A stretch of 31,138 nt of DNA from a virus: IMG/VR virus record IMGVR_UViG_3300022756_000064, positions 1-31,138 of that record. One strand, given 5' to 3'. Made by a program: the position numbers and the translations under genes. Each line of letters begins with the position of its first letter. The first letter of the stretch is position 1. Of the stretch, positions 9,001 through 29,318 are shown one piece after another. A model generated the notes under the pieces. It ran no database searches, was not told where the DNA came from, and saw only the letters and a list, made by a program, of their open reading frames with translations.

Positions 9001-12000
9001 GTTTGCTGTGCCGGTGCAGGCTTACATCGCGAGCCGAGCCGCAGCGATCGACATTCGGTTGATCGAACCGCGCGCCAAAGATGAGTCGGGCAGTAAGGCT
9101 AACAGGGCGGTTCGCGGCATAATCAAACTCTATCGAGAGACCACGCCATACAACGGGACACAGGTGATCTTCTCCGACTCGTTCAACCAAGTCAAAACCA
9201 GTTTGTTTGATGCCGTGGTGCCACGGTCGAATCTCAACCTAGAGCTCGACCCCAGTAAACCGCCAGGAACGACATTTAATCTTTACGAAGACATCAAGGC
9301 GAAACTGATAGCTCTCGGCGTGCCGGCGGAAGAAATCGCGATTGTTGCCGACAAAGAATTTGATAATGCCAAGCGAAAAAAATCACTCTTCGAGGATGTG
9401 AATAAGGGCAAGGTTCGCATCGTGATGGGCAGCACGGAGAAACTCGGCACCGGCGTCAACATGCAGGAGCGGATGCTTGCGGCGTGGAACCTGGACGTTC
9501 CGTGGACAGCCGCAGGGTTAGAGCAACGCGACGGGCGCGTGTATCGGCAAGGCAATGTGCACGCGGAGATGGGCGTACCCGTGGAATTGACGCGGTTGGG
9601 AATGAAAGACACGCTGGATGAATCGCTCTGGAAAATTATTGAGCGCAAACTGCGGATCCAGAAACAGGCGTTAAGCGGTAAGATCGTGGGGCGCGAACTC
9701 GAAGAGATGAGCGATGTCCTGAGTCTCGCGGAGCAAGCCTCGATTTTAAGCGGCCCATACGGAGCCGAGAGTTTCGAGCTGGATAGCCGGATTCGGGAAT
9801 TAGAAGGGAGCCGGGCCGGGCACGACCGTCAAGTTGCAAACCGAGATTCGGAGATCAGGTCGTCGAAAGAATGGCTGCGCCAGCAGGAAGCCGAAGAGGC
9901 GCGGTCTGAGCCGGCGATGCAGTTAATGGCAAAACTCGGTGAGCGCGTCTCGAAAGACGGTGCTCAGATCACGGTAGATGGCGATTCGTTTGAGACTAAG
10001 ACGGCGATGGTGGAGCGTGTGAACGCGTTATTGGACGCGGAGAAAAACAAACCGACCAACGAAAAAAGCAAAGCCATTTTCTCAGTGGCGGTCAACGGCG
10101 TTCCGGTGCGGTTGGATGTTACTCCTACAGAATATGACGAATGGGATGTTGCGGGTGTAGAAAGCAAGAGGGTAACGAAACCGTCCGCGCAGTTCGATCT
10201 GATGGCGACGGATTCCAATAGCCCGAAATTCGGGCGCGTAACCAGCGCGGCGACGCTGTTGGCGCGCCTCGAGGAATTAAGCGGGACGGTGGACGGAATC
10301 AGGGAAGGCCGAAAGAATAACACGGCGCGATTACGGCAACTGGCCGAGATGCAGCAATTGGGTAAATGGCCGTTTAAAGAGGAATACCAGAGAGCACTTG
10401 CGCGACAGAAAGAGCTTTTGAAGCTGATGCGCGGGGAAGAACTCAAAAAAACAGGAGAAGGAGAAGAAACGCCGAACGCTCAACGCCCAACGCCCAACGC
10501 TCAACCGGCAGAATTGCGAGCACAGGCGACGGCGGATGCTGCCAAGACGCCGGCGGAACGGTTTAAGGATGCGTGGCCGTTGGCTGAATCGATTGCACGC
10601 TCGTATTCGAATATCCCCGGCGTGACGCTGAAGGACGTGGAGCAACATGCCCGGATTGCTCTGGTGCGCGCGGCGCGTGAGTTTGATCCTGCTCGCGGGG
10701 CCGCAATGGACACGTTTGCGCGCAAAGTGGTCGGGAATGAGTTGCGCAGTCTTTACGGCAGGCAGATGCGAACGGCGGGGCGGGAATCGACGGTGCTGGA
10801 TGTTCCCGTCTCCGCCGAAGGCTCTGCCGCGGTTTCACAAAAAGAAAACATCGTCGGGCCGAGCGATGTTCGGGCGGACGTGGCGCGGACTGAGGCGACA
10901 CAAATGCTTTCGACCGCGATTGACGAGTTGCCGGACAAAATGCGAGACGTGATGAATGGAATCTTGTCCGGGAAAGAGACGCTGGGCGAGATCGGGGAAC
11001 GGCTTGGCGGATTACCGAAACAAGCCGTAGGCCGGCTGGCGAGTGCGGCTATGCGCCGGTTGAAAGGGAAACTTGGTGAGAAAGGCGTTTCTGGTGTGAC
11101 GGATCTGTTGAGTCAGGAAACGACCACGGATAACACGGATACGGAGAAAAAGACGTTATCGGATTTCTTGGCGAAGCATGATGCGTCGAAGGGCACCGTT
11201 CCCGCTAAAAAGATAGCTGAGCCGACTAGGAGGAATGTTAAGTTAGCTGAGAAGCTCGGAAATCAATCAACGAGAGACTCGTCTGTTGTTCCTAATTTTC
11301 GGCCTGTGGAGCAGGAAATCGCGATTGGAAGGGCTTATGGCTACAGCGATAACGACATCGCAGCATACTTGCAGCGCAATTACGTGGATCGAATACCCGA
11401 ACGTGTTGCGCAAACGTCTGTAGGCGTTCGACCACCGCAGGAGCTAATTGACAAGTATCCAGAGTTAAAACACGCCATTAAAGTTTCCGAGAAATATGGG
11501 CATTTAGTGAAACTCAGCGAGCAACTGGAACTACTGAGTCAGGTCGTCGAGGATGAAGTGAAGCTGTCTGAATCGGCTGATCCGGTGGCGTCGTTCATGG
11601 AGCTTATGCGGGATGATCCGGTTGAGAAGTTGCGCGGTATAAAAGGCATTGGGCGGCCTGATCTGGCGCTGGGCGCGGAGCCTGCCATGCGGCCGGTGCA
11701 CGAGTTTCATACTGCCACGGCTACGCCGCAAAAACTGGATGATTGGGACAAACAAGGCGAAGCGATTTTGCGCAGCCGCGGCGACAAATTGCCAGCGGAT
11801 GTTACTAAACGTTGGCTGGATGGCTCAGTGCTCGAGCCCGCGGAAGTGCGCGCGACACAGCAATATCTCATCGAAAAACAGGGGCAACCGAAGACGCCAG
11901 AGGAACAACGCGGGTATGACGCGTTGGCGTACGCTTATACCAAGATCGGGGAAGCGACCGCACGGGCGTTGTCTGCGCGCCGTGATCCGTTCAAAACGCC

Positions 12001-15568: not shown

Positions 15569-15748
15569 ATGCCGATTGATCCTTATTTCACCAGTGGGCA
15601 CAAGGCGGAAATAATTCGGCCTACGGACAGGTATCTGGCTCGTGTGCGGTATCGGTCGAGCAGGTTTTCTAAGGATCATCCGAGTAGGAAAGCAACCACG
15701 GATTTCACGGATGGCACGGATAAGAAAGAGACCCCATCCGTGGGTTAG
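15569..15748 (+). CDS. Small hypothetical protein with a repeat-encoded tail
   Basis: A 59-residue frame from ATG 15569 to TAG 15746-15748. The first ~42 residues (PIDPYFTSGHKAEIIRPTDR, then a basic Arg/Ser stretch) look like a small basic protein with no family I recognise. The last ~17 residues, starting TTDFTDGTDKKE, are the translation of an ACCACGGAT-type repeat (15698-15727). The original stop has apparently been lost or displaced by the repeat insertion. The same peptide style appears in the giant protein (TTDNTDTEKK). The methyltransferase start follows 9 bases after the stop. Confidence 0.45.
   Translation: MPIDPYFTSGHKAEIIRPTDRYLARVRYRSSRFSKDHPSRKATTDFTDGTDKKETPSVG
15698..15727 (+). 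repeat. ACCACGGAT-type dispersed repeat
   Basis: Three ACGGAT units (CCACGGATTTCACGGATGGC and on) form the 3' end of the small gene 15569-15748 and run to just before the methyltransferase gene. Confidence 0.75.
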
Positions 15749-18032: not shown

Positions 18033-20414
18033 ATGGCTACTCAAAACGATAAATCGCAGACGCAACAGTTCGTGGATCGGTTGCCGGAAACGCCACAGGA
18101 CGAGGAGCAGGCTAATAAGCCGCGGATGCCGTTCAAGACTTCGTATGTGCTTGATCGCCTTCAGGAAGATGAATTGTGCCGGTATGTGTCGGACGCGGTG
18201 GAGCAGATGTCGAAACAGCTCGGGCGCGATGATGTGCTCGATGACGCGAGCGCGGGCAGCGGTGCGTGGGGCCAGGGCGTTGCGCCGGGGAAGATCCGGA
18301 AACGCGGCGGCGCTTCCAAGGTTGAAAGTTGGATGGGGAAACGGGCGCGATACACTGCGCGTTACGAGAATAATGTGGATGATCGGGTTGAACCGAAAAC
18401 GCTTTTTGAGCACTCGAATCTTACGGCGTCGTTGTCGCAGCGGATTGTACGACAGATGGTGGCTCGGGCTGTGGCGTTCTTTTTCGGGCAACCGGATGAC
18501 ACTGATTGGTTCACCACTGAAGCGGTGGGCGAAGAGGACCAGGTACTGGCGGACAAGATTAAGAAACATTCCAGGTGGAAAGTGGACCAGTGCCAATCGA
18601 AAAAGACTTTGGTCAACTCATTTGAGTATGCCTTTGTGCGCGGCGAGGCGGTGGTGAAACCGACGCATCAACAGCGGTTCCAGATTTACAAGCGGACTTC
18701 GACGATTTTGGTGGACGCGCAAGGTCAGCCGGTGCTCGATGCGAACGGAGATTACATTGTGCAGGGAGACGCGTTTGTGGATGAAATGGCTCCAGCGGAG
18801 CCGGACCAACTTCCAACGTCCAACGCTCAACTCTCAACGCCAAATGAAGAGGCTCAGGGGATAACGCCAGATGTTGAAATGGGAGAGCCTCCGGTTCTCT
18901 TTGGCAGCGGGATGGGAATGGTAAACGAAGGCGGGATTCCGAACGTCAGTCCTCAGTCCTCGGTCATCGGTCCTCCGCCTGCTCAGCCTACTGAGCGACA
19001 GGTGCTTAAGCGCGACGGGGTGACGGTGCTGCCGGAAGTGCCGATATGGCAGCAGCAGGAGATCGCCCGGAAACTGATCAAGTTCGAAGGGCCGGATACG
19101 TCGCTGGTGTATTACAAGGATTTTTTGTGCGGGCTCGCGGAACCGGATATTCAGACTGCGCCGATCATTTGTCATCTCTACGACATGGATCTGATGCGGG
19201 TGGCGCAGATGTTTTCGGGCCAATTCGAGGAAGGCGACGGCGGTATAGCTGATTTTGCGGCGGCGGTGCAACGCTTAAAAGACCTGGCAGCGAACACGAA
19301 TCAGCCAAAAGCGGCTGCGAAAAAGCCGAGGCGCGAGAAAAAGGAACAGGAAACGGACGCGCCTGATGGAGTGGCGGTCAGCGAATTTGCGGAGTGCTGG
19401 TTGACTTACAGTAAAGACGGCGACGGGATGAACGACGAGATACTGGTGATTCTCGATCGCAGAAATAAGGCGCCGATTTATTACGAATACGCGGCGAACG
19501 TGACGGTGCGCGGTGATCGCCCGTTTTACGTGGTTCGTCCAATGAACGTGGACGGTCGCTGGTGGGGCATGGGCGGGATGGAGTATTTCGATTCCGAACA
19601 GGAACCGATAGATCTGATGGTGAACCGTCACAATTTCGCGACTGGCAAGAGTGGCCGGGTAACGTTCTGGCGTCCGTATAACACGCTGGAAGGCGACGCG
19701 AACCCGAACCTGATATTGAACGATGGGGGCACCTACACGCCAAAGCCCGGAATGAAAGATGAAGACGTGCTTTCCTACGTCACGCTGCCGTATGACAGCG
19801 AGCGGTTTGAGTTTCTTCTCAATTTTTACATGCAACTAGAGCAGACCAAGAGCGGGGTGCTCAATAGCGCGGACCAGGAAATGAGCGGGCTCCCGAGCAA
19901 CCAGCTTGCGACCGGGATCAACGAGATACGCGATAGCGGGCAGGAACTGTTTTCTCTGATGTTAATGGAACTTTTCGCTTCGGTAAAAGCGATCTTGCTG
20001 GCGACGATTGACATTATCTACGCCAACATGAACAAGACCGAAGTGTTCAGTTATTTCAACGGGGAAGCGAACGAGATTTTGCAGTTGACCCCGGATGAAG
20101 TGCGCGATCTGACGTTGAACGTGGCGTTGTCGTTGACCAGAAGCCAAAAGAGTAAAGCGGTGGAGATGGGTCAAAACGCCACGGGTTTGATTGGATGGTT
20201 TTATGGGTTGCCGCCGGAGTTGCAGTTGCGCGTGGCGCAATTTGCCAGGAACCAGCTAAAGGCGTTCGGCGTGCCACAGGCGGATAAGGTGATTGAGCCG
20301 GTGCCGCCGATGGTGCCGCCCGATGGGGGAATGAACGGCAGCGTAAAAGACGAGGCGTCTCGCGCGGCTGAAAGCGTGGGTGTCGGGCGTGTGAGGGCTG
20401 TTCCGGCGATATGA
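18033..20414 (+). CDS. Portal-like protein
   Basis: The 793-residue product starts at ATG 18033; a TTG at 18015 is an unlikely alternative. Its size, acidic/basic helical layout and the core segment GDRPFYVVRPMNVDGRWWGM and GGMEYFDSEQEPIDLMVN match phage portal proteins, whose central part often reads 'PF...g.wyG.G....l...Q..ln.l.n'. The portal forms the ring through which DNA is packaged and ejected and docks terminase. Residues ~255-330 are a non-conserved insertion containing two dispersed repeats (LPTSNAQLSTPNEEAQ and VSPQSSVIGPPPAQP). The C-terminus is disordered and Pro-rich. Position before scaffold and capsid genes fits the usual phage order. The stop overlaps the next gene (ATGA). 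No terminase gene is in the window. Confidence 0.75.
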   Translation: MATQNDKSQTQQFVDRLPETPQDEEQANKPRMPFKTSYVLDRLQEDELCRYVSDAVEQMSKQLGRDDVLDDASAGSGAWGQGVAPGKIRKRGGASKVESWMGKRARYTARYENNVDDRVEPKTLFEHSNLTASLSQRIVRQMVARAVAFFFGQPDDTDWFTTEAVGEEDQVLADKIKKHSRWKVDQCQSKKTLVNSFEYAFVRGEAVVKPTHQQRFQIYKRTSTILVDAQGQPVLDANGDYIVQGDAFVDEMAPAEPDQLPTSNAQLSTPNEEAQGITPDVEMGEPPVLFGSGMGMVNEGGIPNVSPQSSVIGPPPAQPTERQVLKRDGVTVLPEVPIWQQQEIARKLIKFEGPDTSLVYYKDFLCGLAEPDIQTAPIICHLYDMDLMRVAQMFSGQFEEGDGGIADFAAAVQRLKDLAANTNQPKAAAKKPRREKKEQETDAPDGVAVSEFAECWLTYSKDGDGMNDEILVILDRRNKAPIYYEYAANVTVRGDRPFYVVRPMNVDGRWWGMGGMEYFDSEQEPIDLMVNRHNFATGKSGRVTFWRPYNTLEGDANPNLILNDGGTYTPKPGMKDEDVLSYVTLPYDSERFEFLLNFYMQLEQTKSGVLNSADQEMSGLPSNQLATGINEIRDSGQELFSLMLMELFASVKAILLATIDIIYANMNKTEVFSYFNGEANEILQLTPDEVRDLTLNVALSLTRSQKSKAVEMGQNATGLIGWFYGLPPELQLRVAQFARNQLKAFGVPQADKVIEPVPPMVPPDGGMNGSVKDEASRAAESVGVGRVRAVPAI
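18809..18841 (+). repeat. In-frame CCAACGCTCAA-type repeat in the portal-like gene
   Basis: ACTTCCAACGTCCAACGCTC and following units read LPTSNAQLSTPNEE, in the same translated frame (NAQ) as the copies at 10468 and 28371. Confidence 0.75.
18947..18974 (+). repeat. In-frame CAGTCCTCAGTCCTCGG-type repeat in the portal-like gene
   Basis: Short GTCCTCAGTCCTCGGTCATC units read VSPQSSVIGPPP. It is the reverse-complement type of the 3583-3612 repeat and lies ~105 bases after another repeat in the same insertion. Confidence 0.6.
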
Positions 20415-21218: not shown

Positions 21219-21224
21219 GAGAGC

Positions 21225-21258
21225 GAAAAACGTCGAACGCTGAACGCCGAACATCCAA
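21225..21258 (+). repeat. CCAACGCTCAA-type repeat at the convergent junction
   Basis: AACGTCGAACGCTGAACGCC and following units fill almost the whole 44-base gap between the two convergent genes. No terminator hairpin with a T run is visible. A direct-orientation relative (26733-26766) lies at the other border of the minus-strand cassette. Confidence 0.75.
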
Positions 21259-21772: not shown

Positions 21773-23022
21773 GGTGCTGGTAAAAAACCACATGGATCAG
21801 GATCACAGTCAGTTCCACTCCCCATAAAAGTTCCGCCATCGACCTCACAAGCGAATTGAGTTACATCACTATAGCAAATACCGTCTAAACAGCACGCGCC
21901 CAGGCACGGATCAGGGTCACAGGTTGTTCCATCACCCTGATAAACTCCAGTAGGATTACTTATACACTCTGCTTCGCTAAGGATAAAACAACCATCACTC
22001 GTGCAACACGCGCCTGTTCCCGGCGGTGTCGTGCAAGTATCTTCTTCACACGGGACGTTATCACCCTGAAATGCTCCTTCGGCAGCGATGCACTCAGCCT
22101 CAGTTTTACAGGAGCAATCCTCACCCTCGCAGCACGCGCCTTTGCACTTGTCGGGACAGGCACCAACTACCCTAACGTTCGTGAGCGTAGTTTCGCCATT
22201 GACCTCTGGCGCTAAGACTTCATCCCCGATTATCTCAGTCTCTCCTACCGCAATCGTTACAGTCTTCGGTGTATCTACCAGGTCTCCATCATCATCAGGA
22301 ACGAAGTGCTCATTATATTTAATGCGAATGTCGATGTCTTGCGGACAAGCTATTGTGAATTTCGGTTTGAATTTGGAAAGGCTGTCGCTGCTTCCCCCCT
22401 CAGTAATTATATCCCGGACAGCACTGCAAGAACCTCCAAAAGTCCCCGGATATGGAACATCATTTAGATGTTCAAGAAGCATCTCATCGGTGTATGGGTC
22501 AGATAGATACCAACTGCCAGAAGATACTGTGCGATAACCTTCAAAGGTGTGATCGGAATGCAACGTAGCGGATGTTGGCGATACATCCCAATCATCATCG
22601 CTCGCAAATGGCGGACTAAACCAATCCAAGCTACCATAGGTCGTTGTTGGCGGAGAGGCGTCACAATGAGTGGTAACGGTAGTGCAGTCGCCAAGGTGTG
22701 AATCAGGAAGAAAATCGCAATCAAGTGAAACATCTGGCACCAAACCAAGATGGTGCTCCATATTTGTGCATGTCTGGACTGCTCCTTCAACGTTCCCTCC
22801 ACATGGGCCAACCCGCGTAACAGTGGATGTATAATCGTTTATCCCGCGCCTGAGATAATGATCAGTTTCTGTGCCATCAAAATTGAAAAATCCGCATTTT
22901 TGCACCTGAACGGAATCGCAAACTACAGAAACAGCAGGACAACACCCCGGAGCAAACAAAACCTTCTGCTCAGCAGGGTCATACAGGACCTTGCCCTCAG
23001 AATTAACTAAAACCCCGGGCAT
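21769..23022 (-). CDS. Virion or fibre-like protein with three C-terminal Cys-rich repeats
   Basis: The 417-residue protein has an N-terminal part (PGVLVNSEGKVLYDPAEQKV) and a beta-rich, Asp/Ser/Thr-rich middle without a recognised domain. Its C-terminus holds three ~38-residue Cys-rich units at ~293-330, ~335-373 and ~374-411, each with GACC near the start, a TEAEC-like centre and a GxxCxxDxC end (QGDGTTCDPDPC in the second). Such units occur in many copies in extracellular proteins of Planctomycetes and relatives. They suggest a disulfide-bonded surface part that could bind host or glycan. Start and stop overlap neighbours by 1 and 4 bases. Confidence 0.6.
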   Translation of the reverse strand: MPGVLVNSEGKVLYDPAEQKVLFAPGCCPAVSVVCDSVQVQKCGFFNFDGTETDHYLRRGINDYTSTVTRVGPCGGNVEGAVQTCTNMEHHLGLVPDVSLDCDFLPDSHLGDCTTVTTHCDASPPTTTYGSLDWFSPPFASDDDWDVSPTSATLHSDHTFEGYRTVSSGSWYLSDPYTDEMLLEHLNDVPYPGTFGGSCSAVRDIITEGGSSDSLSKFKPKFTIACPQDIDIRIKYNEHFVPDDDGDLVDTPKTVTIAVGETEIIGDEVLAPEVNGETTLTNVRVVGACPDKCKGACCEGEDCSCKTEAECIAAEGAFQGDNVPCEEDTCTTPPGTGACCTSDGCFILSEAECISNPTGVYQGDGTTCDPDPCLGACCLDGICYSDVTQFACEVDGGTFMGSGTDCDPDPCGFLPAP

Positions 23023-23699
23023 TACGCGCAGCCTTCCCCATCACCGCACTTGGTAGCGCCGCACTCAGCAACGCAAACGGCGATCCACTTTTGATTGCCG
23101 TCCGATGAATCGAAACCCCAGATCCAGTTTTTGTCTTCGTCGAGTCCTGTGGTGGGAAGCACTTCGAATACTATGTCGCCGCAGATTTCGTTGGTCGGGG
23201 TGACAACCGGTGTGGCTCCGGAGCTATCAACTTTTACGTGGCCTATTGTTTTGTAGGCAATGCCACCGGCGTTGTCTGGCGTGGCTGCGCCGTTGTTGAG
23301 CGAGACGCTGGTAATGGTTCCAGTGGATTGGTCTAGTGTGCATTCAGCCCAGATTTCGTCGCCATCGGCTACTTCTAACTGATAAGTGTCGCCGCTAGGC
23401 ATTCCGCTGGGGTCGATGCCGTCGCTGTTGGGATCGTAAACTACGCCGTCGAGGATGAGCACCAGCGCGGTGCCTGGTTCGCTGGCATCGGAGAGACGGA
23501 AGGAGAAACGAACGCCATCTGCCGGATCAGCCCTGCCTGCGCGATCAGCGTCAACTGCCCATACTTTGCCGTCTGCGCCGACGATTCGCGCGGTCCTTGG
23601 CGATTTACTGGCCGGAACGTGGTCGGCGGCCCTGTGGATTTGTTGCAAGCCGCGAATGTGCGGCGGCGCATGTGACCAATTTGAGGGTTGCCAGGGCAT
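23022..23699 (-). CDS. Probable virion surface protein, beta-rich
   Basis: ATG 23699 is preferred: AAAAAGG lies 9 bases before it, whereas the upstream GTG at 23720 falls inside a repeat. The 225-residue product begins MPWQPSNWSHAPPHIRGLQQ, a basic N-terminus, followed by beta-rich Gly/Asp/Ser/Thr-rich sequence (GDTYQLEVADGDEIWAECTL, DQSTGTITSVSL) and ends with a Cys-containing tail (CVAECGATKCGDGEGC). No catalytic motif. The layout suggests a fibre, decoration or tail-associated protein. Its stop overlaps the next start (TAATG), so the two are coupled. Confidence 0.6.
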   Translation of the reverse strand: MPWQPSNWSHAPPHIRGLQQIHRAADHVPASKSPRTARIVGADGKVWAVDADRAGRADPADGVRFSFRLSDASEPGTALVLILDGVVYDPNSDGIDPSGMPSGDTYQLEVADGDEIWAECTLDQSTGTITSVSLNNGAATPDNAGGIAYKTIGHVKVDSSGATPVVTPTNEICGDIVFEVLPTTGLDEDKNWIWGFDSSDGNQKWIAVCVAECGATKCGDGEGCA

Positions 23700-23717
23700 T
23701 TTAGGGAACCTTTTTAA

Positions 23718-23765
23718 CACGAATGGACACTAATTTACACGAATAGCTGATTTCCCGGATGGCAC
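23718..23765 (-). repeat. Dispersed ACGAATGGACAC / ACGGATGGCACGG repeat at a gene boundary
   Basis: Both motif types sit side by side. On the minus strand the repeat codes the C-terminus (SVPSGKSAIRVN) and TAG stop of gene 23730-23969 and the upstream leader of gene 23022-23699. Confidence 0.8.
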
Positions 23766-23969
23766 GGATTTTGGTTTAGGAACACCGAGTAGGCTGTTTT
23801 GTTGGATAGGGATCGCTTCTGGATGCTCACGCCGATCAACAATATTTCCGTTCGACAGACACCCGCCAAAACCAGCTTTGACTACCTCGCGGATCTTACA
23901 CAAAGCATCCACCTTGGGTTGATCTTCGGGTCTGATCGCCTTCAGAGATTCGTGTTTATTCGTGTCCAT
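23730..23969 (-). CDS. Small phage protein whose start and stop lie in repeats
   Basis: The 79-residue product has a central part (VDALCKIREVVKAGFGGCLS, NGNIVDRREHPEAIPIQQNS, LLGVPKPK) that looks conserved; I recall similar 'GGCxxNGxIVDRRexPeAvPIpaNslLGVPxP' proteins in phages but no function. The first eight residues (MDTNKHES) and about the last twelve are translated from two copies of an ACGAATGGACAC-type repeat. Start ATG 23969 lies 14 bases inside the upstream glycosyltransferase gene, so coupling is likely. The core may bind or bridge structural proteins; this is a guess. Confidence 0.6.
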   Translation of the reverse strand: MDTNKHESLKAIRPEDQPKVDALCKIREVVKAGFGGCLSNGNIVDRREHPEAIPIQQNSLLGVPKPKSVPSGKSAIRVN

Positions 23970-23977
23970 TCGTGGTT
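23945..23977 (-). repeat. ACCACGAATGGACACGAATA repeat spanning a gene junction
   Basis: On the minus strand this one repeat codes the last six residues (TTNGHE) and the TAA stop of the glycosyltransferase and, in another frame, the ATG and first codons (MDTNKHE) of the next gene. Confidence 0.85.
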
Positions 23978-25062
23978 TTCTTTAAGAGGTCTGCCCACCA
24001 AGGCCAGCAGGCATCGGGGTTGCCGTGGCCTGTGGTGACGAGCTGCGCGTAAGCCTGGCTGGCGATGGCGCGCCGCATGTTTGGGTAAAAGGCCAGTTCG
24101 CTGGCGCGGAAAGCGGCTTCATCGGGTGAATCGACCAGAAAACCGGTTTCTTTGTCGGTGATCAGTTCTTTGGCGCCGCCGCGGTTATCGGCTATGACCA
24201 CTACGCCGGCAGCCTGCGCTTCGAGCATAATGCGACCCAAAGCTTCTTCCCATTGGTAATCGCACACGTGCACAAGCACATGGCTACGGGCGTAAAGCTC
24301 CGACAGCGTTTGGCTGTCGTGTATGTGCTGGTGCAACGTGACGTTGAGTTCGTTGTGCCATTTACAGGAATTATCGGTTGCCGTTGGGTCGCCTACTTTT
24401 GCGGCGGCTTCCGGGCCGAACCCGGCAATTTCGATCTGGACGCTGGCGCCCGCGGGCGCGGTGACACCGCAAAACATGCGCCACGTGTCGGGATGCCATT
24501 TATCGGGGTCGTCCCGGCAGATTTTCAGGGCGCGAAATGTTTTGTCGTCGCGCTCGGTTCTGAAACGCAGTGGCAGATAGCGGCTTTTGGTGTTGATGAA
24601 AGCTTTGTAACCTGAGCGGGCTTTAACGGCTTTATGAGCGCGCCGGGCGATGATGGGGCCGAGTTTGTCTGCCAACGCGCGGCTTTGAAAAAAAAACTCG
24701 TCGATTAAGCCTTCCCGGTGCGCGGCGATCTCGTCGTCGGTGGCGTAGTGCATACAATCGGAGTAAACGAAATAACCGGGGCGATCGTTATTTTCCCGGA
24801 TGAGCGGGAACAGGCGGACGCCTTCACCGAAAGACATGAGGACCTGGCACTCTTTGAACATGCCCGGTGTGTACTGAACCAGTGTTACGCCAAGTTTGTC
24901 CCGGAGATAATCGGCAGCGGGGTTGCCGTGGTCAATGATCGGATCGCCCGGCGGCACGATCATGCGCACAGGGACTTTGCGCGAGCGCAATAGCTCGATG
25001 GCGCCTAATATCTCGGTGCCGCAGCCGCCGCATTGGTGGACGATGCCGAAGAAGTTGATCAT
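23956..25062 (-). CDS. GT-B glycosyltransferase (GT4-like)
   Basis: The 368-residue product (ATG 25062) begins MINFFGIVHQCGGCGTEILG, a Rossmann-like start with a Gly-rich loop. The C-terminal domain has EEALGRIMLEAQAAGVVVIA at ~272-291, then DNRGGAKELITDKETGFLVD, the classic donor-nucleotide site (E-x7-E) of group 1 / GT4 glycosyltransferases. It should transfer a sugar from a nucleotide sugar. A longer product from TTG 25137 is possible, but its extra 25 residues (including LRPAKPWQSR) come from a repeat. It lies just downstream of the Ser-rich repeat gene, the obvious candidate acceptor; DNA glucosylation is an alternative. An intragenic copy of the GACAGCG hairpin lies at 24302-24318. Confidence 0.85.
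   Translation of the reverse strand: MINFFGIVHQCGGCGTEILGAIELLRSRKVPVRMIVPPGDPIIDHGNPAADYLRDKLGVTLVQYTPGMFKECQVLMSFGEGVRLFPLIRENNDRPGYFVYSDCMHYATDDEIAAHREGLIDEFFFQSRALADKLGPIIARRAHKAVKARSGYKAFINTKSRYLPLRFRTERDDKTFRALKICRDDPDKWHPDTWRMFCGVTAPAGASVQIEIAGFGPEAAAKVGDPTATDNSCKWHNELNVTLHQHIHDSQTLSELYARSHVLVHVCDYQWEEALGRIMLEAQAAGVVVIADNRGGAKELITDKETGFLVDSPDEAAFRASELAFYPNMRRAIASQAYAQLVTTGHGNPDACWPWWADLLKKTTNGHE
24302..24318. repeat. Intragenic copy of the GACAGCG hairpin
   Basis: GACAGCGTTTGGCTGTC, followed by GTGTATG, differs by one base from copy 6 (GACAGCGTTTCGCTGTC then GTGATATG). On the minus strand it codes DSQTLS in the glycosyltransferase. Unlike the other copies it precedes no gene in its plus-strand orientation. 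Confidence 0.6.
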
Positions 25063-25098
25063 CCTGCTTTGCCAAGGCTTCGCAGGACGAAGGAGATC
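25063..25098 (-). repeat. Hairpin repeat abutting the glycosyltransferase start codon
   Basis: On the minus strand TCCTGC...GCAGGA form a 6-bp stem with GCC/GGC inside, and the final A of GCAGGA is the A of the ATG at 25062. A similar hairpin precedes the capsid gene (29402-29423). It could hide or replace a ribosome-binding site; no other clear one is present. Confidence 0.6.
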
Positions 25099-25117
25099 GT
25101 CCAATGTTGAATTAAGA

Positions 25118-25843
25118 TCATGTGGGAACGCCTTCAAAGAACAGGCCGCCGGCTACGGGGATTTCCATTTGGAAGTCTACGGACACGTCTTCGTAGCGTG
25201 TTGAAACTTCCGGGGCAGGATTTTCGGTGGTAGTGGAAGTGCGGCTGCCGTGCGTGGTGCTGGTGGTGCGGGTCGGATCGGTGTGGGTGGTTTGCCTGCT
25301 ACTGGAACCGCTTTCAGAGGCTGAGCCGCTGCTAGAAGTGGACGTGGAATGGGAACCACTGCGACTGCCGGAACTGGATCGGCTTGAACTGGTGCTGCTA
25401 GAATGCGTGCCGCTGCGACTAGAGGACGCACTGCGACTGCTCGATGTGCTGGCGCTATGCGTTCCGCTACGCGAACCGGTGCCACTACGCGACGACGATG
25501 TGCTTGCGCTGTGCGTCCCGCTACGCGAACCTGTTCCGCTGCGACTGCTCGACGTACTGGCGCTGTGTGTGCCACTGCGTGAGCCGGTGCCACTACGCGA
25601 TGACGATGTGCTGGCACTATGCGTCCCGCTGCGGCTTGAACTGGTGCTGCGACTGCCTGACGTGCTGGCGCTGTGCGTGGTAGCGCGGCTGGTGCTTCCG
25701 CTGCGGCTGCTGGACGTGCTACGGGTGCCGCTGCGGCTACCGGTGGCTGAGCGCGTAGAGGATTGGCTTGTCGAATGGCTAGATGAACTGTTTTCCGATG
25801 TGCCGTGCTCAGTTCTGCGTTGGTATAGACGGTAATCAGCCAT
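25118..25843 (-). CDS. Serine-rich repeat protein (probable surface protein, possibly glycosylated)
   Basis: The 241-residue product has a short N-terminus (MADYRLYQRRTEHG), a Ser/Thr/Arg/Gly-rich body and a C-terminal ~55 residues that look folded (EVSTRYEDVSVDFQMEIPVA, GGLFFEGVPT). Residues 55-180 are seven 18-residue units near GTHSASTSSSRSGTGSRS. There is no signal peptide or LPxTG anchor, unlike bacterial serine-rich adhesins. It is coupled (TAATG) to the acidic Ser-rich gene upstream and followed by a glycosyltransferase gene, so it may be a glycosylated fibre or capsid decoration. A long antisense frame over the repeat is a composition artefact. Confidence 0.7.
   Translation of the reverse strand: MADYRLYQRRTEHGTSENSSSSHSTSQSSTRSATGSRSGTRSTSSSRSGSTSRATTHSASTSGSRSTSSSRSGTHSASTSSSRSGTGSRSGTHSASTSSSRSGTGSRSGTHSASTSSSRSGTGSRSGTHSASTSSSRSASSSRSGTHSSSTSSSRSSSGSRSGSHSTSTSSSGSASESGSSSRQTTHTDPTRTTSTTHGSRTSTTTENPAPEVSTRYEDVSVDFQMEIPVAGGLFFEGVPT
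25304..25681 (-). repeat. Tandem 54-bp repeat, seven units
   Basis: Seven consecutive 54-base units encode 18-residue blocks. The middle three or four are nearly identical in protein and the outer ones diverge (GSHSTSTSSSGSASESGS at the C-terminal edge). Slippage or recombination could change copy number. Confidence 0.85.
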
Positions 25844-26664: not shown

Positions 26665-26823
26665 CTTGGGAAGTGAGCGTAGTTTGACAGCGGAGCGCAG
26701 TCAATAGAGAATGGAAAGGCTAGGAATGAAGAAAACGCTCAAACGCCGAACGTCCAACGCTCAATTTGAGAAAGATACTATGCTCTTGACAGCGGTTAGC
26801 TGTCGTGAGAAACAGCTTTGCTA
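26665..26823. promoter_or_regulatory. Divergent intergenic region with two GACAGCG hairpins and a repeat
   Basis: It separates the minus cassette from the plus-strand head genes. Plus strand: TTGACA at 26684-26689 with hairpin GACAGCGGAGCGCAGTC (26686-26702), and TTGACA at 26786-26791 with perfect hairpin GACAGCGGTTAGCTGTC (26788-26804). Between them is a CCAACGCTCAA-type repeat (26733-26766). Minus strand: TTGACT, 17 bases, TACGCT is a weak promoter candidate for the cassette. -10 boxes on the plus strand are poor. Confidence 0.5.
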
Positions 26824-27219: not shown

Positions 27220-27228
27220 TGGCGGAAG

Positions 27229-27255
27229 AAAACGCCGAACGCCGAACGCTCAATG
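27229..27255 (+). repeat. CCAACGCTCAA-type repeat
   Basis: AAACGCCGAACGCCGAACGC and CTCAATG lie directly after gene 26824-27219, as at 21225 and 26733. Confidence 0.7.
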
Positions 27256-27269
27256 TAGAATAACAGAAA

Positions 27270-27983: not shown

Positions 27984-29318
27984 ATGCCGCAGTCTCAAAT
28001 GGATGAGACTCAAACCTCTGGCGAAAGCCGGGGCGAGCAATCTTCTGGTCAAACGGCGGGCGAGAGTCAATCGCAAGCGGCTGGTGAAGTGAAGGCTGAA
28101 GATACGGCGCATAGCGCCGTGGCTACAGCGGGAACTGAATCGGGTGCTGCCACTGCGTCTGAGAAATCAACGACACCACAACAGGGCGAAGCTGAGGGGG
28201 AACGCGGCGAGGGCGCTGCGGCTACGGCGGCGAAGCCTGAGCGGTCCAAGACCGCAGTGGGTGTGGAAGATTATGAACGGATGAAGGCGGATGCGCTTAG
28301 TCCGAAGCCAGCAACTACGGGTCCGGCTGTTGTTTCCGGTGGCGAAAGCCCTGGGAAAACAGAGGAGCAGAAAACGTCCAACGCTGAACTTCCAACGTCG
28401 AACGCCCAAGTAGAAGAGCCGCCTAAAGGCGGGACTCCGAGCGAGGCTCAGGGCGAAGGCGGCGGCGAGGAGGAGAATAAACTTCCTGATCGGGTTCGGC
28501 TGGGCGGGCTTTCGGATGCGGACAAGGGGCACATAGTGGCGGCGAAAGCGATCGCTACGGCTGAAAAGATTCCGTTTGCGGATGCGTTATTTCGCGTGAC
28601 TGGAAAGGCGACGGCGAAAGCTGAAGGCGCTACGGGTAGCGAAACGGCTACAGAGACGGCAGCGACGACGGAGGGTGCATCGAGAACGGTTGAGCAAATC
28701 CAGGCGGATATTGCGGCAAAAAAGGCGGAGAAGAAAGACGCGGCCGCGCAGCTTGATCTGAGTAGGACGGCTGAAATCGATGATGAACTGGATACGTTGC
28801 GCGACGAACTCGGTATGGCCCGCAGGGCGGTTGAGGAAGCGAACTGGCTGGCTGAGAACGAACGGCAAACGCAGTTTCAGACATCGGTGCGCGATTCCAA
28901 GAAGCGCCTGCTGGAAGCGTATCCGGACGCGGCAGACGATAACAGCGCGCTCTCGAAAGAAATGCTGGCCATCGCAGACGTGATGGAGCAGCAGAATAAT
29001 CCGCTGGTCTATGAGGCGGACGCGCCGTTTAAGATTGGGCAGATGGCTGCGAACAAGCGCGGGATACCGCCCCAGAGCGGACCAAGTAAGAAAGAATCTT
29101 CCACACCTGCTGCGGGAACACGGGCCGCGGCACCTGCCAAGCCGCAAGGCGTAAGGCAGGAAGCAGTGGTGTCCAAACCCGCAGGCGGACCGGCAGCAGC
29201 CGGGAGCGCCCGCACAACCAGCGGGGGGAACGGACAGACTGCTATTGACCCTGAAAAAATCAGGACGGTGGAAGATTACGAAGCGGTGAAGGCCGAAGTA
29301 ACCGGCGCGCGCAGATAA
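27984..29318 (+). CDS. Scaffolding-like protein
   Basis: The 444-residue product lies directly before the capsid gene. Residues 1-170 are disordered, rich in Gln, Ser, Gly, Ala and Glu. LPDRVRLGGLSDADKGHIVA and AEKIPFADALFRVTGK (~175-215) look conserved; a coiled coil (TVEQIQADIAAKKAEKKDAA to RRAVEEANWLAENERQ) spans ~235-300, then a helical part (RDSKKRLLEAYPDAADDNSA) and a disordered C-terminus ending with a short helix (IRTVEDYEAVKAEVTGARR). This plan fits phage scaffolding proteins that guide capsid assembly. In-frame repeats at 28371-28437 add SNAELPTSNAQVEEPPKGGT in the disordered region. Confidence 0.75.
   Translation: MPQSQMDETQTSGESRGEQSSGQTAGESQSQAAGEVKAEDTAHSAVATAGTESGAATASEKSTTPQQGEAEGERGEGAAATAAKPERSKTAVGVEDYERMKADALSPKPATTGPAVVSGGESPGKTEEQKTSNAELPTSNAQVEEPPKGGTPSEAQGEGGGEEENKLPDRVRLGGLSDADKGHIVAAKAIATAEKIPFADALFRVTGKATAKAEGATGSETATETAATTEGASRTVEQIQADIAAKKAEKKDAAAQLDLSRTAEIDDELDTLRDELGMARRAVEEANWLAENERQTQFQTSVRDSKKRLLEAYPDAADDNSALSKEMLAIADVMEQQNNPLVYEADAPFKIGQMAANKRGIPPQSGPSKKESSTPAAGTRAAAPAKPQGVRQEAVVSKPAGGPAAAGSARTTSGGNGQTAIDPEKIRTVEDYEAVKAEVTGARR
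28371..28409 (+). repeat. In-frame CCAACGCTCAA-type repeat in the scaffold-like gene
   Basis: AACGTCCAACGCTGAACTTC and following units read KTSNAELPTSNAQV, the same translated phase as at 10468 and 18809. Confidence 0.75.
28416..28437. repeat. In-frame hairpin repeat (CCGCC-TAAA-GGCGG)
   Basis: A perfect 5-bp stem with TAAA loop, flanked by GAG and GACTC, reads EPPKGGTPS. It lies 6 bases after the preceding repeat, so two repeat families are stacked in one linker. Confidence 0.6.

Follow-up and report, generated by a model that had tools for sequence, protein, structure and literature searches.

An inverted repeat pair that supplies gene ends at a phage gene junction, read as a probable non-autonomous element of a GxxExxY-linked family

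The DNA analysed here (the window), an IMG/VR virus record of 31,138 nucleotides (31 kb), codes for a portal of the SU10 type and for a major head protein. Three minus-strand ORFs adjoin in its 23.7-24.0 kb region: a glycosyltransferase ORF, a 79-codon ORF and a third gene (Table 1). Two repeats, arm 1 and arm 2, are found at their borders. Each arm consists of three units of about 10 bp, and the two are inverted and converge on each other (33 nt, 85%, 191 nt between them); the pair ranks first in the list of inverted repeats of the window; the block thus has terminal inverted repeats, as do MITEs and terminal-inverted-repeat transposons. The first-pass annotation of this DNA had described two copies of one repeat type, a description to be corrected in that the copies lie in opposite orientation. 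The inverted score of the pair was 20.5, compared with a maximum of 12.5 in 300 Markov-1 simulations, which makes a chance origin of the pair extremely improbable.

On the minus strand (23977-23948) arm 1 reads AACCACGAATGGACACGAATAAACACGAAT. One frame of it gives ...K-T-T-N-G-H-E-TAA, the end of the glycosyltransferase ORF; another frame gives ATG-GAC-ACG-AAT-AAA-CAC-GAA (MDTNKHE), the start of the 79-codon ORF. The minus strand of arm 2 reads S-A-I-R-V-N-TAG, the end of the same ORF, and arm 2 also lies within the leader of the third gene. All these assignments, namely TTNGHE with TAA and the ATG with MDTNKHE in one copy, and the C-terminus, TAG and following leader in the other, had been made in the first-pass annotation and were read directly in the arms. 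Its further claim that the repeats provide codons for three genes holds for two, the glycosyltransferase and the 79-codon ORF; the likely ATG of the third gene and the AAAAAGG sequence upstream are both outside arm 2. A program-called GTG start of the third gene, at 23720, is located inside arm 2, and would be thrown out of frame by an extra C at 23717 of an overlapping 67-kb IMG/VR contig. With this C, arm 2 matches the consensus AACCACGAAT. The two contigs were otherwise identical across the 18 kb compared, their sole mismatch falling inside arm 2.

Table 1. Features of the glycosyltransferase junction and a second repeat pair in the window.
Feature	Position	Strand	Description
GT4-type glycosyltransferase ORF	23956..25137	-	PF00534, E 7.6e-16; last codons and stop inside arm 1
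Arm 1	23948..23977	-	AACC-ACGAAT-GGA-CACGAAT-AAA-CACGAAT; read directly
79-codon ORF	23730..23969	-	Conserved small phage protein in its interior, arm-derived ends; proposed cargo
Arm 2, inverted copy	23716..23744	+	AACACGAATGGACACTAATTTACACGAAT; the overlapping contig has the consensus AACC here
AAAAAGG	23709..23715	-	Likely ribosome-binding site of the third gene; letters read directly, function inferred
Third (next) gene	23022..23699	-	Likely ATG start 23699-23697; distant positional homologue in L006-L010
Second, shorter convergent pair	15694..15745	.	Related CACGGAT type, 9-bp period; from sequence, separate from the main element

Several other repeats occur in the window. CACGGAT units with a 9-bp period lie at 11124-11140, in frame inside a 4860-aa protein (TTDNTDTEKK). 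A second repeat family with a 7-bp period (AACGCCC/AACGCTC) is present at 10460-10511, 18807-18844, 21221-21258, 26727-26764, 27223-27260 and 28365-28402, several copies being in frame within phage proteins, e.g. NAQRPTPNAQ. A short, dispersed, palindrome-like repeat, TGACAGCGTTTCGCTGTCGT, occurs at four or five sites (15226, 24301, 26786, 27407 and 27960).

Seven homologues of the glycosyltransferase (L004-L010, 43-48% identity) have unrelated tails and no repeat, so that the ends do differ in relatives, a comparison that the first-pass annotation had asked for. In five of these relatives, L006-L010, the next gene starts 1-2 bp past the glycosyltransferase stop codon and is distantly homologous to the third gene of the window (hhalign probability 86%, E 4.6e-6), which was the only match among the seven window proteins tested against it. 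The serine-rich gene preceding the glycosyltransferase is also common to L006-L010 and the window. In L004 and L005 a different gene follows, after a gap of 22 bp. Because L006-L010 have 1-2 bp and a homologous next gene at this position, approximately 260 bp appear to have been added at the window junction; for this element, presence and absence are seen only through distant relatives.

Homologues of the 79-residue protein were found in four unrelated phage contigs (L281-L284, 55-60% identity). They align to residues 15-70 alone and have different ends, different neighbours and no arms. The protein had no match in PHROGs, Pfam or NCBIfam, and was absent from the 145 Verrucomicrobia genomes, known phages and plasmids searched. 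Judged by these alignments, both ends of the protein are arm-derived and its middle comes from a real phage gene. Homologues having the same terminal residues with no repeat at the DNA level were sought, and none was found.

Analysis of other genomes with the search pattern CACGAATGGACACGAATNNACACGAAT gave at least 119 stretches with exact matches. Among the matches listed were Verrucomicrobia, Lentisphaerae, Planctomycetes, Proteobacteria, Desulfobacterota, Acidobacteria and other phyla; likewise among the matches listed, 48 of the 61 neighbouring arm pairs less than 400 bp apart were convergent and 13 were otherwise arranged. The arm consensus is AACC followed by three CACGAAT units with a 10-bp spacing. 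Paired arms enclose spacers of between 2 and about 400 nt, which bear no relation to one another across taxa, and single arms with no partner exist. No consistent direct repeat that could be a target-site duplication was found around 87 elements, nor a precise target.

One Terriglobia genome has two PF13366 genes that occupy the interval between arms. Approximately 17 copies of an element of roughly 196 bp with these arms were observed in Terriglobia (L230-L246, genome G009); what lies inside them bears no relation to the nuclease gene and is in many cases open from end to end, and these short elements are not simple deletions of the full element. Nested elements, with a pair of one arm type within an element of another type, were observed at L068 and L243.

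GxxExxY proteins are annotated in many bacterial genomes, with no role assigned. The gene between the arms belongs to this family (PF13366/TIGR04256), and elements with the same ends as the window element code for it. A search for the GxxExxY motif in 8-kb loci picked by the repeat gave one gene, and linkage was therefore tested from loci picked by the protein. Among 57 GxxExxY loci chosen by protein score alone in two phyla, the gene was located between inverted arms in 48 (24/28 and 24/29). PIN-domain genes were used as control since the loci share arm types, which makes comparison across loci a poor one; none of 30 was found between inverted arms (p 1e-15; first of the two phyla). At the level of whole genomes, PF13366 was present in all 20 Verrucomicrobia with the repeat and in 49 of the 125 without it (145 genomes; p 6.6e-8, shared ancestry ignored). 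For Pseudomonadota the corresponding values were 13/15 with the arm class and 19/185 without (200 genomes; p 3e-10, shared ancestry again ignored). An IS200-like Y1 (HUH) transposase is not the gene linked to these arms.

The arm unit varies among GxxExxY loci (CACGAAT, CACGGAT, CACAGAG, CGCAGAG, CACGAAG, CGCCAAG and more), and arms differ between GxxExxY subfamilies. Similarity of arms and similarity of proteins were correlated (Mantel rho 0.27, n=85, above all 1000 permutations) in a set of which about 30 loci had been picked for similarity to one protein. Nearly all loci with at least 52% identity to the L016 protein carry arms of the AACC-rCrrAT type. A few GxxExxY loci showed plain palindromes or no detectable arms; at L155, L276, L160 and L273 the genes are bracketed by near-perfect simple palindromes and not by three-unit arms, perhaps representing another subtype.

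No GxxExxY gene was found in the window element, in the 67-kb sister contig or in nine other phage records. A search for close relatives gave none in viral contigs and only two weak hits in plasmids. The protein had no PDB relative, and AlphaFold, run on two sequences, gave a mean pLDDT of 43.

In 14 of the 18 full elements of the arm class seen in the window, the nuclease ATG lies within the arm; ten of these 14 start codons are at offset 8, where the 79-codon ORF also starts. It is mainly on account of this shared offset that we infer the 79-codon ORF to be cargo in the place of the nuclease. Among the elements examined, no other gene made a convincing cargo.

Presence and absence at an orthologous site were seen at the ribF-ileS junction of one proteobacterial genus, gain and loss being unpolarised there. 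Two species carry a full element at this junction; other species of the genus have nuclease remnants, a CGCAGAG-type pair or, in several, none. RibF ends in IL[ADTS] in six species with no arm at its end (G265, G174, G197, G162, G281 and G358). In G178, G201, G193, G313 and G337 it ends in ILDAD, ILATD, ILTQMNAD or ILTQMAADGRK, the tail and stop codon being read from arm-like sequence. The RibF ends thus differ with and without an arm, showing that arms do replace gene ends. Rewriting of a border by repeats, claimed for the glycosyltransferase in the first-pass annotation, therefore occurs independently at RibF; where that annotation saw borders built by repeat insertion, the rewritten ends stand, while the repeats are one inverted pair and probably one element with a cargo gene.

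Long inward ORFs stop inside an arm or within 30 bp of it at 66 of the 163 element ends, compared with 196 of 1630 random points (p 9e-18; the ends are not independent and some of the long ORFs are not genes). Open frames across joined flanks were set aside as proof, being unreliable in G+C-rich genomes.

Since the same arms enclose a GxxExxY gene elsewhere, the arms of the window resemble the termini of a mobile element of a little-known kind. The reading we prefer, to which we give a probability of roughly 65%, is that the block is a non-autonomous GxxExxY-type element that carries a captured phage gene and has inserted between two genes. It is termed non-autonomous because a different ORF lies inside and no GxxExxY gene is found in the phage contig. 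The full form of the family, about 420-430 bp, would consist of three-unit arms around a single GxxExxY (PF13366/TIGR04256) nuclease gene of the PD-(D/E)XK type. In this phage, the arms would be the inverted ends of a short element of about 260 bp, and the small conserved phage gene would occupy the place of the nuclease gene, being read, as the nuclease often is, from an ATG built into the arm. Landing between the glycosyltransferase and the next gene, such an element would have left its outer arm to provide the last codons and stop of the glycosyltransferase. A host GxxExxY nuclease acting in trans may bind the three-unit arrays at both ends and cut the DNA, and cutting at the arms would let copies spread, presumably by transposition and preferably beside stop codons. 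The phage copy would depend on the host nuclease, none having been found in the 67-kb contig.

The cargo probably arrived together with the arms in one event. The 79-codon gene could instead have been resident beforehand, with separate insertions, one at each of its ends, of two arms or of two short inverted-pair elements of which a single arm each was later left. The concentration of element ends at stop codons would provide two tolerated insertion points flanking any small gene, partnerless single arms exist, and no other cargo-bearing element was found. This history is nonetheless unlikely: it requires two insertions in exactly convergent orientation, the relatives of the junction do not have the 79-codon gene, the homologues of that gene sit in unrelated contexts, and its ATG is at the standard position of the nuclease start in the arm.

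We consider it less probable still that the arms are selected sites for protein binding or RNA hairpins, such as 3'-end structures or transcription signals, with GxxExxY as a cognate host nuclease beside its own sites. Arms are located at the 3' ends of genes, and hairpins could form from the short pairs, whose loops measure 2-40 nt; such sites would, however, hardly have spacers of such varied length and sequence, be complete, decayed or missing at the same orthologous junction, or differ in sequence between GxxExxY subfamilies. The one-base difference within arm 2 between the overlapping contigs might raise the suspicion of an assembly artefact, but the same block is present in two IMG/VR contigs that otherwise agree, the pair scores far above simulation, and the same layout recurs in dozens of genomes, making artefact or chance repeats extremely improbable.

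The element has partial counterparts among known systems. Like MITEs (PMC10969869), it is short, multi-copy and bounded by terminal inverted repeats, occurs as non-autonomous copies beside a longer coding form, and has in-frame effects on neighbouring genes; unlike them, it has arms of three tandem 10-bp units, showed no target-site duplication, and is linked to a PD-(D/E)XK-type nuclease in place of a known kind of transposase. Rickettsia palindromic elements (Ogata et al. 2000, in PMC10969869) are repeats lying in frame within protein-coding genes, and in joining such genes in frame they resemble the arms; the arms, in contrast, sit at gene ends, give start and stop codons, are unrelated in sequence and are linked to GxxExxY. 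REP/BIME sequences with RAYT transposases (PMC2817692) likewise comprise inverted short extragenic repeats with a single dedicated enzyme gene between them, and differ from the present case in enzyme family, in the three-unit arms and in the occurrence here of one arm sequence across many phyla. The protein between the arms of full elements is the same as that of the GxxExxY entries (TIGR04256/PF13366); the family is annotated by sequence only, and the papers of the collection searched mention it just in passing and describe no repeats or element linked to it. No GxxExxY/PF13366/PDDEXK or Verrucomicrobia-repeat element of this kind was described in the literature collection searched, a limited one that leaves novelty unproven, and the arm sequence searched as text gave only primers and unrelated matches.

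A wider proposal, about as likely as not, is that GxxExxY proteins mobilise, as nucleases, a so far unrecognised class of elements found throughout the bacteria; these elements would have three-unit inverted arms, would move without any known type of transposase, and could carry captured genes, in this case into a phage, while rewriting the ends of host genes. A link between GxxExxY and a well-defined arm pair offers a protein of no known function a role that can be tested, and would account for short repeats found across unrelated phyla. It also illustrates how a mobile element can endow genes with new start and stop codons and new terminal residues, and how phages might capture single genes.
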